Assembly: GCA_016209385.1 (NCBI GenBank)
Contig: JACQWB010000169.1
Span: 1-34,796 of the forward strand
Source: Candidatus Rokuibacteriota bacterium
GTDB lineage: Bacteria; Methylomirabilota; Methylomirabilia; Rokubacteriales; CSP1-6
Length of the DNA: 34,796 nt
Direction: 5' to 3'
A program made the position numbers and the translations under genes. Positions within the stretch are counted from its first letter, which is position 1, and each line of letters opens with the position of its first letter. The notes below the pieces were generated by a model. The model searched no databases, was not told where the DNA came from, and saw nothing but the letters and a program-made list of their open reading frames with translations. Below, piece after piece: positions 15,748 to 21,641 of the stretch.

Positions 15748-16137
15748 CTACCAGGTCTGAAGTCGAAGGCCTGCGACCGCTCCGAAGTGAGTGTCACGCG
15801 TCGCCAGGTCCAGATCCTGCTCCAGGGCGACTGCAGCGATCCAGATATCGTTCTCAGGAATTGGACGACCCTGCTGTCTCAGTCGGTCTTTCACTCGACC
15901 GTATGTTTCCGCCGTAGATGCGGTAACAGGGAGGACCGCAGTGGCCCGGACAAAATCTCTGATTTGGCGGATATTGCGCTCAGCTTGTCCGGATTTGATT
16001 GCTCCGTAGAAAAGTTCGCCCACCGCGATACTTGGTGCAAAGACTTCGGTAACCTCGGAAAGAGACGCGACGACTGCCCTGTCCCCATTGAACAGGGCGA
16101 TGATGACCGTGGTATCGAGGAGGACTCTACCAGGCAC
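15748..16137 (-). CDS. VapC-type PIN-domain ribonuclease toxin
   Basis: A 129-residue PIN-domain protein. The acidic active-site residues are in place: D8 in VLLDTTVIIALF, E41 in VGELFYGA, the D of PENDIWIAAVAL and the D of LATRDTHFGAV. VapC toxins cut tRNA or rRNA and are held inactive by the partner antitoxin. The GTG start overlaps the antitoxin by 11 nt, the usual tight coupling of such pairs. It ends 15 nt before coaE. Confidence 0.88.
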   Translation of the reverse strand: MPGRVLLDTTVIIALFNGDRAVVASLSEVTEVFAPSIAVGELFYGAIKSGQAERNIRQIRDFVRATAVLPVTASTAETYGRVKDRLRQQGRPIPENDIWIAAVALEQDLDLATRDTHFGAVAGLRLQTW

Positions 16138-16750: not shown

Positions 16751-17691
16751 TCATTGTCTCCTACCTGTAAGACTCTCCACCGCGGCCTTGAATAAGGGCG
16801 CCATGGATTCGACCGTGGTACTCCCCGGCTCGATCTTGAAAACGCCCTCCTTCCACTGGTCTTCATAGCGGGTCATCGTGACTCCCTTCGGACATAGACG
16901 TCTTGCCTCGGTCTCGGACAGCTTGAAGAAAAACGCAAACGACTTCGACCCGATCCATTTGATCCCGAAAGCGTTGAAAAATCCGTGCTTGAACCCGCAG
17001 TAGTGCTTAGCTTATTGAACTTCGGCTCCAGCGGCCAGCTGTTTTTGCGTACGAAAGCCGCGGTTTCCTCGATGTACCGGAAGAAATGTCCCACGCTAAT
17101 TTTGTTGTAGCCCTCCGTCTCGTAAAACACACGATCATACGTCTGAAGACCTCGGACCGGTCGAACCTTAGCAGGGATCTCAGGCTCCAAGCGATTGATC
17201 AGCAAAAACTCATTGTCATTTTGCAGCCACCTTTTGACCTCGATCAGGTCGACAGGATAGTTGATCTTACCTACAAGACTTAACGTCGAACGGTCGATAG
17301 AGGGCGCAATCACAATGATTCGCACGTCGTAATCGTCGAACGAAATCGGTACGTTTTCTGGTTGCTCCGGTGACTCAAGCCAGAGAGATTTGATTGAATC
17401 AGGATTCGACTCCGCCCAAAACGCATACTGCAACACTTGCGGCAGGATGGAAGCATCAACGGGAACGTCTTTCATCTCTACGATGCAGACGTTTCCATCG
17501 CTATCCACCCCGATGATATCAGGAATACCGGGCTTCTTTCCTCCCCGTACCTGGCGCTTGAGAAGGTAAACATCCTCCAGCAAGCCCTTGGTTTCAAATA
17601 CCACTCGCTCGAATTCTTCTTCTGAGGAAAATGGCACGGAGAGGAGGTTCGCTGGTGCTCCCGTCTTTTGTTTCCAGAAGAGGTTAATCAT
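16751..17691 (-). pseudogene. PD-(D/E)XK nuclease gene split by a 5-bp tandem duplication
   Basis: The intact first frame starts at the ATG 17689-17691 behind GGAGG and reads as a RecB-like nuclease: GIPDIIGVDSDGNVCIVEMKD (D58, E72, K74) and QVLQY (Q85, Y89). After FNK the frame degenerates to a Ser-rich tail ending at 16873. In the next frame the protein clearly continues as HYCGFKHGFFNAFGIKW and ends at the TGA 16751-16753. The break coincides with two tandem copies of gctta (17005-17014; TAAGC on the coding strand). Removing one copy gives an open 311-residue protein with a C-terminal DUF5655/DUF4268-like domain. It may be a pseudogene, a phase-variable gene or an assembly error. It lies 38 nt after polA in lower-GC DNA. 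Confidence 0.72.
17005..17014. repeat. Tandem duplication gctta x2 causing the frameshift
   Basis: Two abutting copies of gctta at 17005-17009 and 17010-17014. One copy would keep the nuclease reading frame continuous; two shift it. Confidence 0.75.
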
Positions 17692-17729: not shown

Positions 17730-20700
17730 TCACACCTCGGACCAGTCGCGGCCGAGCTTGAGGTCCACCTTGAGGGGGACGGAGAGGGTCATGGCAGATT
17801 CCATGACCTCGCGGGTGAGGGGTTCCAGCGTCGCAAGCTCTGCCTCGGGCACCTCGAAGAGGAGATCGTCGTGGACCTGGAGCAGCATGCGGCTCCTCAA
17901 CCCACGAGCTCCGAGTTCCGCGGCCATCCGGACCATGGCGACCTTGATCAGGTCCGAGGCCAACCCCTGGATCGGGGCGTTCATGGCCATGCGCTCGGCC
18001 ATGCCGCGGGCGTTGGGGTTGCTGGACTTGAGCTCGGGGAGGTAGCGGCGCCGCCCGAGGAGCGTACTCACGTACCCCTTCTCCCGTCCCTCGGCGAGCG
18101 TCGCGTCCAGGTACGCCTTGACTTTGGGATGGCGGGCGAAGTAGTCGTCCAGGTACTTCTGGGCCGCCCGCTGGTCCACCCCCGCGGCCTGGGAGAGCCC
18201 GAAAGCAGATACTCCATAGATGACGCCGAAGTTCACCGTGTTATGACTCACGAGCGCGTTCGCCAAATAGCTATGGCCCTCCGGAACCGCGAGGTCGAAC
18301 GCCTCGATGAGTTCCTCGAAGACCCTCCTCACCGGCAGGAAAACGATATTGTTGTGGACAAAGAAGTCCATCTGCCTCGTCCACTTGTCTGACACTCCCG
18401 CTGACCTGAGCTGCTCCACGATCATGGCCGCGCGAGTCTGGTTTAATCTGACTGGGCATCGCTTGCGAATGATCTCGTAGGCTTTCTCCCTCCCCGTGCT
18501 GCGCAGGAAAGGCAAGTGCCGGGCAACTTCTGCTTCCTGCGAGGGAATGATTGTGTGGTCGTACCGGACGCCCTGAACGAGACGATTCTTCCTTCTTGAG
18601 ACGAACCCGATCTCGCGGACAAACCGCCTCACGTTCGGCATTCCGGTCAGGCTCAGGACAAACGCCCCATGCTCGCGACCTTTCCATTTCCTGGCTTCTC
18701 GCTTCAACGTGAACAGGTAGCCAAAGTTCAGCAGCAGCTGCTGGAGACGTTGGGCGAGGGCCCGAGACGTAGTGGTGTAGGTTATCTGGCGGCCGGCGGA
18801 CTTCATGGAGCCGTCGCCCGAGAAGAGTGCTCGCAGAAACTCGATCTGGACGTGGTACGGGGCCGCCAGAAGGCTGTCTGGGATGGTCTTCTCACTCGAC
18901 CGCCCGGCGGCGCCGATGCGTTCAAGCCAGCAGACGAGCTTGCCAGACCGGATCTCGACGGACACAGAGCCGCCCCGTTCCTTGATGACTGCTCTGTCTC
19001 CAAACAGATGGCGACTGACGCACACCATGTCGCCTGCCACTTCCGGCTCTTTCGTTGCCTGGCTGATCATAACGGCCCCGCTCCCAGGCTTGGCGGGATG
19101 CCGGTACACATAGCCCTCCGAGATTACATAGCCAAGAAATCGCGCAAGCTCAGCGGACCATCGCTCCGGCAACCCGATGTCCTTGAAGTTGGTTCTCTCC
19201 CATTCCTGAGGGTACCGAAGGTCCGGGAGGTGCTCTTCATGGCCGAATGCTCGAGTTCCCACTCTGACGGCCACGTAATCCCCCAAACGGAGGTCGCACG
19301 CCCGCTTCCAGACGTAATCCCCCTCTCGGTTGATCACCCGAACCCGATGGTCCCTGGTGCACGACACCTCCAGGCCCGTCCTGAGCGTGATCCGAAAGCC
19401 CGGCTGGTGGCCCCCGTAGTAGAGCTGCGTTGCCGTGCTCAAGCCGTTATCCGTCCAGACCTTCACGGCTTCGAGAGGGGCGAACTCTCCGCACGGAGGA
19501 GCCGGGCCGAGCGACTCTATCGGGCGGAGTCCCTCGGACGTGTAGACGAGAGTCCCGCGCGCCACGCACTTCGCCACCCGCCGCATCTCAGCGGTGACCG
19601 CCTCGCGCGCGACGCTGAACGCCTCAGAGGCCGTGCGCGTGTGGATGTCCTCACCACGCTGGAAGGACTCCATCAGCGTCTCCTCCCCTGAGAGATGCGC
19701 GAGGATCCGCAGCTCGATCTGGGAGTAGTCGGCCGCGAGGAAGGAGTGACCCGGCTCCGGGATGAAGGCCTGACGGATCCGGCGTCCCAGCTCGGTTCGG
19801 ATCGGGATGTTCTGCAAATTTGGTTCCGACGAGCTGAGCCTCCCCGTGGCGGTGACGAGCTGGTTGAACGAGGTGTGGATCCGCCCGGTGACGGGATGGA
19901 TCAGCCCCGGGAGAACGTCCGTGTAGGTGGACTTGAGCTTGGCCAGCGTCCGGTGCTCGAGGATCCTGGCGGGCAGCGGGTGACCCAGGGCCAGCTCGGC
20001 GAGCACGTCGGCATCGGTGGAGTAACCGGTCTTGGTGCGCTTGACCGGCGGGAGCTTCAGCTTCTCGAAGAGCACCTGGGCGAGCTGCCTGGGCGAGTTC
20101 ACGTTGAACGCCTCGCCCGCGAGCGCGTGGATCTCGCGGGTGAGGTTGTCCAGGTCCCGCTCGAGCTCCTTGGCGAAGAGCTCGAGCCGCTCGGGCGCGA
20201 CACGGATGCCGTCGAGCTCCATCCGGGCCAGGACCGGGACGAGGGGCCGCTCGATCTCCGCGTAGAGCGTCGTGAGGCCGTGCTCCTCGAGCAGGCACAG
20301 CGCGTGGGTCCAGTAGCGCCAGACCCAGCGGGCGCGCTCTCCGGCCCGTGACGCCACCTCGTCAGGCGCCGCTTCGGTAGGGGCCGCAGGCCCCGGGCCT
20401 TCGCCGAAGCTCTCGAGGCAGATCTCTTCGAGCTCGTAGCTCATCCGCGCCGAGTTCAGGAGGTAGGCCGCCACCGCGGAATCCTCGAAGCGCGGAAGCG
20501 CGGCGCCGTGCTTGAGGATCCACTGGAGCGGGAGCTTCACGTCGTGACCGATCAGGGTCCGCCTGCCGAGATCTGGAGGCGGGTCGCTGAGAGGGAGGTA
20601 CGCAGGGCCGGCGTCAGGGTGAAAGAGACCGAGAGCCTGGATCACGGGCTCTGGAGGGCGGCCGCCTCCCACCCACTCCACCGCCAGCGGCGCCTCCGTG

Positions 20701-21641
20701 GGGACGGACCTGAGATACGCTGCGAGGTCTTCAGCGGAGGACAGGACACCCACGGGCTCGGCCACCACCTGCACCGCGGGCTGGGGGATCTGGCGAAGCA
20801 GGCTTGAGAACTCCAGCTCCGACCAGATCGCGCGGAGCCGGGACCAGTCGGGCTCGCCGCGCCTGAAGGCCTCGAGCTCGAAGCCGAGCGGGACTCGCTC
20901 GCTGATCGTGGCGAGCTCGCGCGAGAGGAACGCCTGCTTCCGGTGCGTGGCCAGAGTCTCCCTGAGCTTCCCGCCGCTGACCAGCGGGAGGTTCGCGTAG
21001 AGCCGCTCCAGGCTCCCGAACTGGGCGAGGAGCTTCCGCGCCGTCGTCTCGCCGACGCCGGGCACCCCCGGGATGTCGTCGATCTCGTCGCCCATCAGGG
21101 CGAGGAGATCGGGGATCTGGGCCGGCGCCACGCCCCAGCGCTCCTGCACCTGGGCCTCCTCGTAGACGACGCGCTCTCCCGTGCGGCCAATCGCCGAGAG
21201 GACCCGGACCTTGGGGCCGACGAGCTGCAGCGCGTCCTTGTCTCCCGTGACCAGCACCAGCTCGACGGCCAGGTCGCGCGTACGCGCGACGAGAGTCCCC
21301 AGGATGTCGTCGGCCTCATAGCCCACGACCTCCAGAAACGGCATCCCGAACGCCTCGATCACCGCTTTCACGTGGGGGATCTGCACGGCCAGGTCGGCCG
21401 GCATCCCCGGGCGGCTCTCCTTGTAGGCCTCGAAGGCCGCGTGCCTGAACGTCGGCCCGGGCGCATCCCACGCGACCGCGATGTAGTCCGGCTCCTCCTC
21501 CCTGAGGAGCTTCCAGAGCATCGTGCTCATGCCGAAGACGGCGTGGGTGGGGACGCCGCGGGAGCTGGAGAGGTAGCCGAGGCCGTGGTAGGCCCGGTAG
21601 AGATGGGACGGGCCGTCCACCAGAAAGAAGCGCGGCATCAT
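17730..21641 (-). CDS. polA: DNA polymerase I interrupted by an in-frame intein
   Basis: Repair and Okazaki-fragment polymerase. The 1303-residue precursor holds a 443-residue intein (residues 692-1134), leaving an 860-residue polymerase, a normal length. The 5'-nuclease domain (about 1-290) has FLVDGPSHLYRAYHG, YEADDILG, VTGDKDAL and GDEIDDIPGVPGVGETTARKLL. The 3'-5' exonuclease domain (about 310-440) is degenerate: the DxE motif is replaced by VEW. Polymerase motif A is FLAADYSQIELRILAHLSGE, motif B is RRVAK then TVNFGVIYG, split by the intein, and motif C is LLQVHDDLLFEVP. The ATG overlaps the glnE stop as ATGA, so polA ends the glgA-glnB-glnE-polA run. Without splicing the O-helix is broken and polymerase activity should be absent. 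Confidence 0.97.
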   Translation of the reverse strand: MMPRFFLVDGPSHLYRAYHGLGYLSSSRGVPTHAVFGMSTMLWKLLREEEPDYIAVAWDAPGPTFRHAAFEAYKESRPGMPADLAVQIPHVKAVIEAFGMPFLEVVGYEADDILGTLVARTRDLAVELVLVTGDKDALQLVGPKVRVLSAIGRTGERVVYEEAQVQERWGVAPAQIPDLLALMGDEIDDIPGVPGVGETTARKLLAQFGSLERLYANLPLVSGGKLRETLATHRKQAFLSRELATISERVPLGFELEAFRRGEPDWSRLRAIWSELEFSSLLRQIPQPAVQVVAEPVGVLSSAEDLAAYLRSVPTEAPLAVEWVGGGRPPEPVIQALGLFHPDAGPAYLPLSDPPPDLGRRTLIGHDVKLPLQWILKHGAALPRFEDSAVAAYLLNSARMSYELEEICLESFGEGPGPAAPTEAAPDEVASRAGERARWVWRYWTHALCLLEEHGLTTLYAEIERPLVPVLARMELDGIRVAPERLELFAKELERDLDNLTREIHALAGEAFNVNSPRQLAQVLFEKLKLPPVKRTKTGYSTDADVLAELALGHPLPARILEHRTLAKLKSTYTDVLPGLIHPVTGRIHTSFNQLVTATGRLSSSEPNLQNIPIRTELGRRIRQAFIPEPGHSFLAADYSQIELRILAHLSGEETLMESFQRGEDIHTRTASEAFSVAREAVTAEMRRVAKCVARGTLVYTSEGLRPIESLGPAPPCGEFAPLEAVKVWTDNGLSTATQLYYGGHQPGFRITLRTGLEVSCTRDHRVRVINREGDYVWKRACDLRLGDYVAVRVGTRAFGHEEHLPDLRYPQEWERTNFKDIGLPERWSAELARFLGYVISEGYVYRHPAKPGSGAVMISQATKEPEVAGDMVCVSRHLFGDRAVIKERGGSVSVEIRSGKLVCWLERIGAAGRSSEKTIPDSLLAAPYHVQIEFLRALFSGDGSMKSAGRQITYTTTSRALAQRLQQLLLNFGYLFTLKREARKWKGREHGAFVLSLTGMPNVRRFVREIGFVSRRKNRLVQGVRYDHTIIPSQEAEVARHLPFLRSTGREKAYEIIRKRCPVRLNQTRAAMIVEQLRSAGVSDKWTRQMDFFVHNNIVFLPVRRVFEELIEAFDLAVPEGHSYLANALVSHNTVNFGVIYGVSAFGLSQAAGVDQRAAQKYLDDYFARHPKVKAYLDATLAEGREKGYVSTLLGRRRYLPELKSSNPNARGMAERMAMNAPIQGLASDLIKVAMVRMAAELGARGLRSRMLLQVHDDLLFEVPEAELATLEPLTREVMESAMTLSVPLKVDLKLGRDWSEV
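18240..19568 (-). mobile_element. LAGLIDADG intein in polA (443 residues)
   Basis: Protein-splicing element with homing endonuclease. Block A starts at Cys1 in CVARGTLVYTSEG. Block B holds T71-x-x-H74 (CTRDHRV). Block C is the first LAGLIDADG helix, FLGYVISEGY, with Glu151. Block E is the second, FLRALFSGDG, with Asp252. Block F is FDLAVPEGH and block G is SYLANALVSHN, ending in His442-Asn443; the +1 residue is Thr of TVNFG. All splicing residues and both metal-binding acids are present, so splicing and endonuclease activity both look intact. It sits between the invariant lysine of RRxAK and the following threonine. Bounds were fixed by codon register: first codon 19566-19568, last codon 18240-18242. 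GC content looks lower than in the flanking polymerase. Confidence 0.95.

Follow-up and report, generated by a model that had tools for sequence, protein, structure and literature searches.

A class 1 LAGLIDADG intein in motif B of DNA polymerase I of a Rokubacteria member, and the trace of homing at the same site in CSP1-6

The polA locus and its insert

The DNA analysed here, referred to as the window, is a stretch of 34,796 nucleotides from a Candidatus Rokuibacteriota bacterium. It carries a polA gene on the reverse strand (Table 1), the neighbours of which are ordinary chromosomal genes for GlnE, CoaE, a KsgA-type protein, RNase J, FtsK, a GltX-type (glutamyl-tRNA synthetase-type) protein and LptD. 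The polA reading frame has no internal stop codons across its 1303 codons and includes an insert of 443 residues (residues 692-1134), running from Cys692 (19566-19568) to Asn1134 (18240-18242). Excision of the insert in silico leaves a continuous DNA polymerase I of 860 residues that reads EMRRVAK-TVNFGVIYG across the junction. The dimensions of gene, insert and restored enzyme in the original prediction are exact to the base. The Pfam DNA_pol_A profile is matched on either side of the insert, over profile positions 3-216 and 212-381. A PIN-domain protein (PF01850) is encoded next to polA at 15748-16137 on the reverse strand, possibly a VapBC-type toxin together with a short region upstream to about 16365, and a 272-residue open reading frame without a Pfam match lies downstream of polA at 16873-17691 on the same strand.

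Alignment with Taq polymerase places the insertion in motif B between Lys691 and Thr1135. These correspond to Lys663 and Thr664 of Taq, which we take to be residues of the O-helix. The O-helix binds the incoming nucleotide. To call the interrupted motif invariant is slightly too strong, as the +1 residue varies among relatives, where it can be Gly, Ser, Met, Val, Ala or Thr. The junction pattern N-[T/S]-x-N-F-G-x-x-Y-G has a single match in the window and none in 100 shuffles, therefore this match is not attributed to chance.

The genome to which the window belongs is a draft of 310 contigs, 95% complete with 3% estimated contamination. A search of this genome found no second polA, both of its matches being the two halves of the interrupted gene. 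An intact second copy, which would have spoken against the original prediction, was thus not found in the 95%-complete genome.

Table 1. Positions of polA and of the intein blocks in the window
Feature	Position	Strand	Family match
polA, DNA polymerase I precursor, 1303 aa (5'-3' exonuclease, middle region, polymerase), intein-split	17730..21641	-	TIGR00593/PRK05755 over cut-off
N-extein, residues 1-691, C-terminal end ...EMRRVAK (Taq K663 equivalent)	19569..21641	-	
Intein, 443 aa, class 1, with LAGLIDADG homing endonuclease domain	18240..19568	-	
Block A (Cys1 nucleophile, CVARGTLVYTSEG)	19530..19568	-	
Block B (TxxH: T71, H74)	19335..19376	-	
LAGLIDADG motif 1 / block C (ARFLGYVISEG, acidic E151)	19113..19145	-	
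LAGLIDADG motif 2 / block E (FLRALFSGDGS, acidic D252); block D lysine K227 before it	18807..18839	-	
Block F (D425, H432)	18267..18308	-	TIGR01443
Block G (ANALVSHN; penultimate H442, terminal N443)	18240..18263	-	
C-extein, from Thr+1 (Taq T664 equivalent), TVNFGVIYG..., plus stop	17730..18239	-	

The features predicted for the insert, a Cys at the start, His-Asn at the end before Thr, blocks A, B, C, E, F and G and both acidic residues, were all located, and the residue set of a class 1 intein is present (Cys1, T71/H74, H442-N443 and Thr+1). The acidic residue of block C is Glu in this intein and Asp in most of the aligned relatives. In Pfam the insert matches LAGLIDADG_3 (E 6.5e-19, 68.4 bits) and Intein_splicing (E 8e-12; 45.6 bits against a cut-off of 35.8 for the insert alone). 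Of the NCBIfam models, TIGR01443 is over its cut-off, and TIGR01445, for the N-terminal region, is just below it (20.6 against 24.5). An AlphaFold model of the intein, made from 30 aligned inteins, has a mean pLDDT of 90.3 and a pTM of 0.91. Its top match in the PDB by Foldseek is the TliVMA intein with its endonuclease (7qss, E 6e-26), and the I-DmoI endonuclease and the GyrA intein are also matched over shorter stretches. The TliVMA intein and PI-PfuI (1dq3) share with the PolA intein a splicing fold into which a LAGLIDADG endonuclease is inserted; however, they have archaeal hosts and are only 14-22% identical to it. The profile matches, the block residues and the model agree with the predicted full-length LAGLIDADG intein in polA motif B. 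By all sequence-level tests the insert is a class 1 LAGLIDADG intein, with a small reservation for the TIGR01445 score.

The same site in CSP1-6 and other relatives

A polA match was found in 73 out of 95 genomes of the phylum, and the only motif-B intein besides that of the window is in the polA of Candidatus Rokubacteria bacterium CSP1-6 (LDXP01000102), a metagenome-assembled genome. This intein occupies the same site, is likewise 443 residues long and has 72% amino acid identity to that of the window. It keeps all of the blocks despite the 28% divergence, and it is located within an imported polA tract. No description of it was found in the literature search. A scan for the junction pattern over 84,980 species genomes, excluding the window's own, returned eight stretches; only the one in CSP1-6 proved to be a true case. 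The pattern is strict in requiring N-F-G and would miss hosts with N-F-A, N-F-S or N-Y-A, which are common among Rokubacteria. Of the rejected matches, five (L068, L071-L074) are chance occurrences outside polA and two (L070, L075) come from PolA of the Bacteroidales type, in which AKAN-T occurs naturally and no insert is present. The site is empty in G074, a congener of CSP1-6, and in the other relatives with a readable site, such that the intein-free alleles sought in relatives do exist. In a further genome, G080, the polA contig (C156, L114) ends a single codon past the Lys of motif B (AAA|TCT), precisely where the intein is inserted in the carriers, and another insertion may have broken the assembly there.

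The splicing and endonuclease residues, E151 and D252 included, are kept in both copies. Between the two inteins dN is about 0.2, and no estimate of dS is given because third positions are saturated. Divergence of the inteins (72% amino acid identity) is about that of the exteins (74%). The GC3 of the inteins is 0.76 and 0.70, compared with 0.88-0.91 for the exteins.

CSP1-6 (G072) and G074 are assigned to the same genus, and at the amino acid level the exteins of their polA genes share 92% identity. The CSP1-6 gene reads AKTVNFG at the site, whereas intein-free G074 reads AKGIGFG. Over the 375 positions around the insertion (-300 to +75) nucleotide identity between these two genes is 75.2%, against 92.0% over 1920 positions elsewhere (Fisher p 3e-18, an optimistic value because the limits of the tract were chosen after seeing the profile). 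There is no dip at -300 to +75 in the pairs G074-G000, G000-G084 and G072-G000, where G000 is the genome of the window; small dips occur in the empty-allele pairs G074-G084 and G074-G082. In an extein tree from which the tract was left out, CSP1-6 is beside intein-free G074 (SH-aLRT 99) and inside a clade of empty alleles. The polA of the window is outside this clade of empty alleles, with its extein falling within the Rokubacteria. Two changes of state are needed on this tree for the motif-B site.

The tract of about 375 nt around the CSP1-6 intein thus has the signature of homing with co-conversion. A distribution that is patchy against the host phylogeny and co-converted flanks, by which a mobile intein is recognised, are found together for CSP1-6, a result that does not extend to the copy in the window. 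A recent transfer straight from the lineage of the window to CSP1-6 was rejected, the inteins being only 72% alike in amino acids and the tract only 77% alike in nucleotides. As the CSP1-6 tract is only 77% similar to the polA of the window, the donor would therefore have been an unsampled lineage.

The +1 residue is Gly in the nearest empty alleles (G074, G082, G084 and G094) and Thr in both of the carriers. A class 1 intein requires a +1 nucleophile such as Thr. The simplest account is that Thr+1 would have come in together with the intein, although in the lineage of the window it may be ancestral. Gain of the intein appears to change an O-helix residue, at the Taq T664 position, from Gly to Thr, and homing may in this way edit the host enzyme.

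PolA as a host of inteins

A search for further PolA inteins at motif B, as proposed with the original prediction, found genes of five uncultured phages in addition to CSP1-6, each interrupted by an intein between the motif-B Lys and the Thr/Ser next to it. Four of these are IMG/VR sequences (L066, L067, L289 and L290) and one is LR745208 (L127). For L066 there is only the C-terminal junction, the sequence being cut off upstream. The inteins of L067, L127 and L289 are of another lineage, with about 23-27% identity to that of the window and 34-39% to each other; L067 and L127 group separately from the two Rokubacteria inteins, and L289 aligns with L067 and L127 over its full length at 35-39%. 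L290 has a mini-intein of 173 residues at the same PolA position, without an endonuclease and with Ser at +1. In its N-terminal splicing part, this mini-intein shares 37-40% identity with the Rokubacteria pair (37% with that of the window), and about as much with class II ribonucleotide reductase (NrdJ) inteins. A T7-type motif-B junction pattern had no viral matches, and a single-sequence viral search with the intein of the window found no relative. Queries made from alignments found many viral inteins, none of which is highly similar to it.

At least five further intein sites are present in polA beyond the motif-B Lys^Thr/Ser position, in phages and in other Rokubacteria. Inteins are found before an RLSS motif in Staphylococcus phage Romulus, Bacillus phage fHSPT3, L212 and L253, and other phage sites are in motif A (L139), further on in motif B (L221; L134, L207) and near motif C (L206). 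Four Rokubacteria genomes have an intein at a second site, TGRLS^S, about 90 residues upstream: L104 (G062), L105 (G061), L106 (G069) and L107 (G090). These inteins are 435-436 residues long, distantly related to the motif-B intein and patchy within genera. Those of Romulus, fHSPT3 and G061/G062/G069/G090 are of the LAGLIDADG type like that of the window; however, their sites differ and identities are roughly 22-30%. PolA is a multi-site intein host, and its motif-B position has been entered more than once. That other inteins, carried by phages, also occupy this position supports the idea of catalytic motifs as repeated targets.

The best-scoring other bacterial inteins are those of Rokubacteria NrdJ, which have the same domain layout and 28-34% identity. 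They differ in host protein and site, and one is in the window's own genome. A grouping of these with the PolA intein is unsupported, and an origin of the PolA intein from that of NrdJ is no more than possible, given the open forks of the tree.

Bacterial PolA is listed among intein-containing proteins in Table 1 of a 2018 review (PMC5874633), phage PolA inteins are discussed for Remus, Romulus and relatives (PMC7497331), and the Romulus sequence record annotates one. The host gene is therefore not new, which qualifies the original impression that this gene and site had not been described for such a bacterium. No paper reporting an intein in the O-helix of Pol I was found in the open literature, a scope outside which subscription journals and InBase lie. 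Likewise, no paper joining Rokubacteria with inteins was found in the open literature. What was known is PolA as an intein host; what is new here is this Rokubacteria member at motif B.

Proposed mechanism and the inteins of the genome

The insert is very probably a class 1 cis-splicing intein in the PolA O-helix, with a LAGLIDADG endonuclease that would drive homing. Cys1 would form the N-terminal thioester and Thr+1 would take over the N-extein, after which Asn443 would cyclise with the assistance of His442, leaving the 860-residue Pol I. The two-motif endonuclease would cut an intein-free polA at the same place, and repair of the break would copy the intein in along with flanking polA DNA. 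The anatomy, the failure to find a second polA, the patchy distribution and the imported tract can be read from the sequences; that the intein splices autocatalytically, and that its endonuclease cleaves the intein-free allele, we infer. The unspliced precursor is expected to be without polymerase activity, and with a single polA and an insertion within the O-helix it can soundly be argued that Pol I activity would depend on splicing.

An intein that still splices, but with an endonuclease that is dead or no longer cuts, could be kept only since it cannot be cleanly lost. This is possible though rather unlikely. The about equal divergence of intein and extein between the window and CSP1-6 would allow the window copy to be old and resident. 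However, conservation of both acidic residues, of the block D lysine and of the endonuclease region is similar in rate to that of the splicing blocks, and the horizontal gain with co-conversion in CSP1-6 is also against it. A regulatory intein, its splicing gated by redox, temperature or DNA damage to switch on Pol I when needed, is improbable. Conditional splicing is known for some inteins and provides a general precedent, and in a genome with inteins in DnaB, DnaE, PolA, ribonucleotide reductase and UvrD-like helicases such gating could reach many replication steps; however, no sensor is indicated by the sequence and patchiness among congeners suits a parasite better than a kept regulator. 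A broader form, in which the inteins of these same proteins are a shared post-translational gate on Rokubacteria replication and repair, with the O-helix interrupted until a signal, is less probable still. That the arrangement arose from faulty assembly or binning, or that the contig comes from a phage, is scarcely credible: the draft state of the genome, with its many contigs and estimated contamination, would allow for this, but the reading frame is uninterrupted, the neighbours are chromosomal, the extein belongs within the Rokubacteria and CSP1-6 is an independent genome with the same arrangement.

We take the PolA intein to be a genuine mobile intein, rare but ordinary in its mechanism. 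It interrupts the helix that binds the nucleotide in a bacterial Pol I encoded on the chromosome, in a genome where no second polA was found. Its value is in the rarity of this site in bacterial chromosomes, in the fact that phage inteins have used the position repeatedly, and in the homing record, which in the Rokubacteria is a clear natural one: the site is filled in one genome and empty in a congener, and the imported tract spans about 300 nt on one side and 75 nt on the other. A motif-B intein could also serve as a tool to make Pol I conditional.

The genome of the window has about ten Hint/intein insertions. The hosts are DnaB, DnaE, PolA, class II ribonucleotide reductase (two), two UvrD-like helicases, a MoxR-type AAA ATPase, a radical SAM protein and a nucleotide-sugar epimerase-like protein, and the intein contigs are C73 (L116), C308 (L111), C59 (L108), C282 (L117), C122 (L118), C202 (L110), C139 (L119) and C247 (L288). 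Several core replication enzymes of this organism would need splicing. The helicase inteins L117 (C282) and L118 (C122) have YVYLM...G.RIG.T stretches in place of LAGLIDADG that are GIY-YIG-like by eye, with no Pfam match to GIY-YIG at E 0.01. In NrdJ, L108 (C59:1-5000) has a second small Hint domain, NP^CVTGDT...YVSRG^CGEQPLLPNE, the apparent end of which is Arg-Gly rather than His-Asn.
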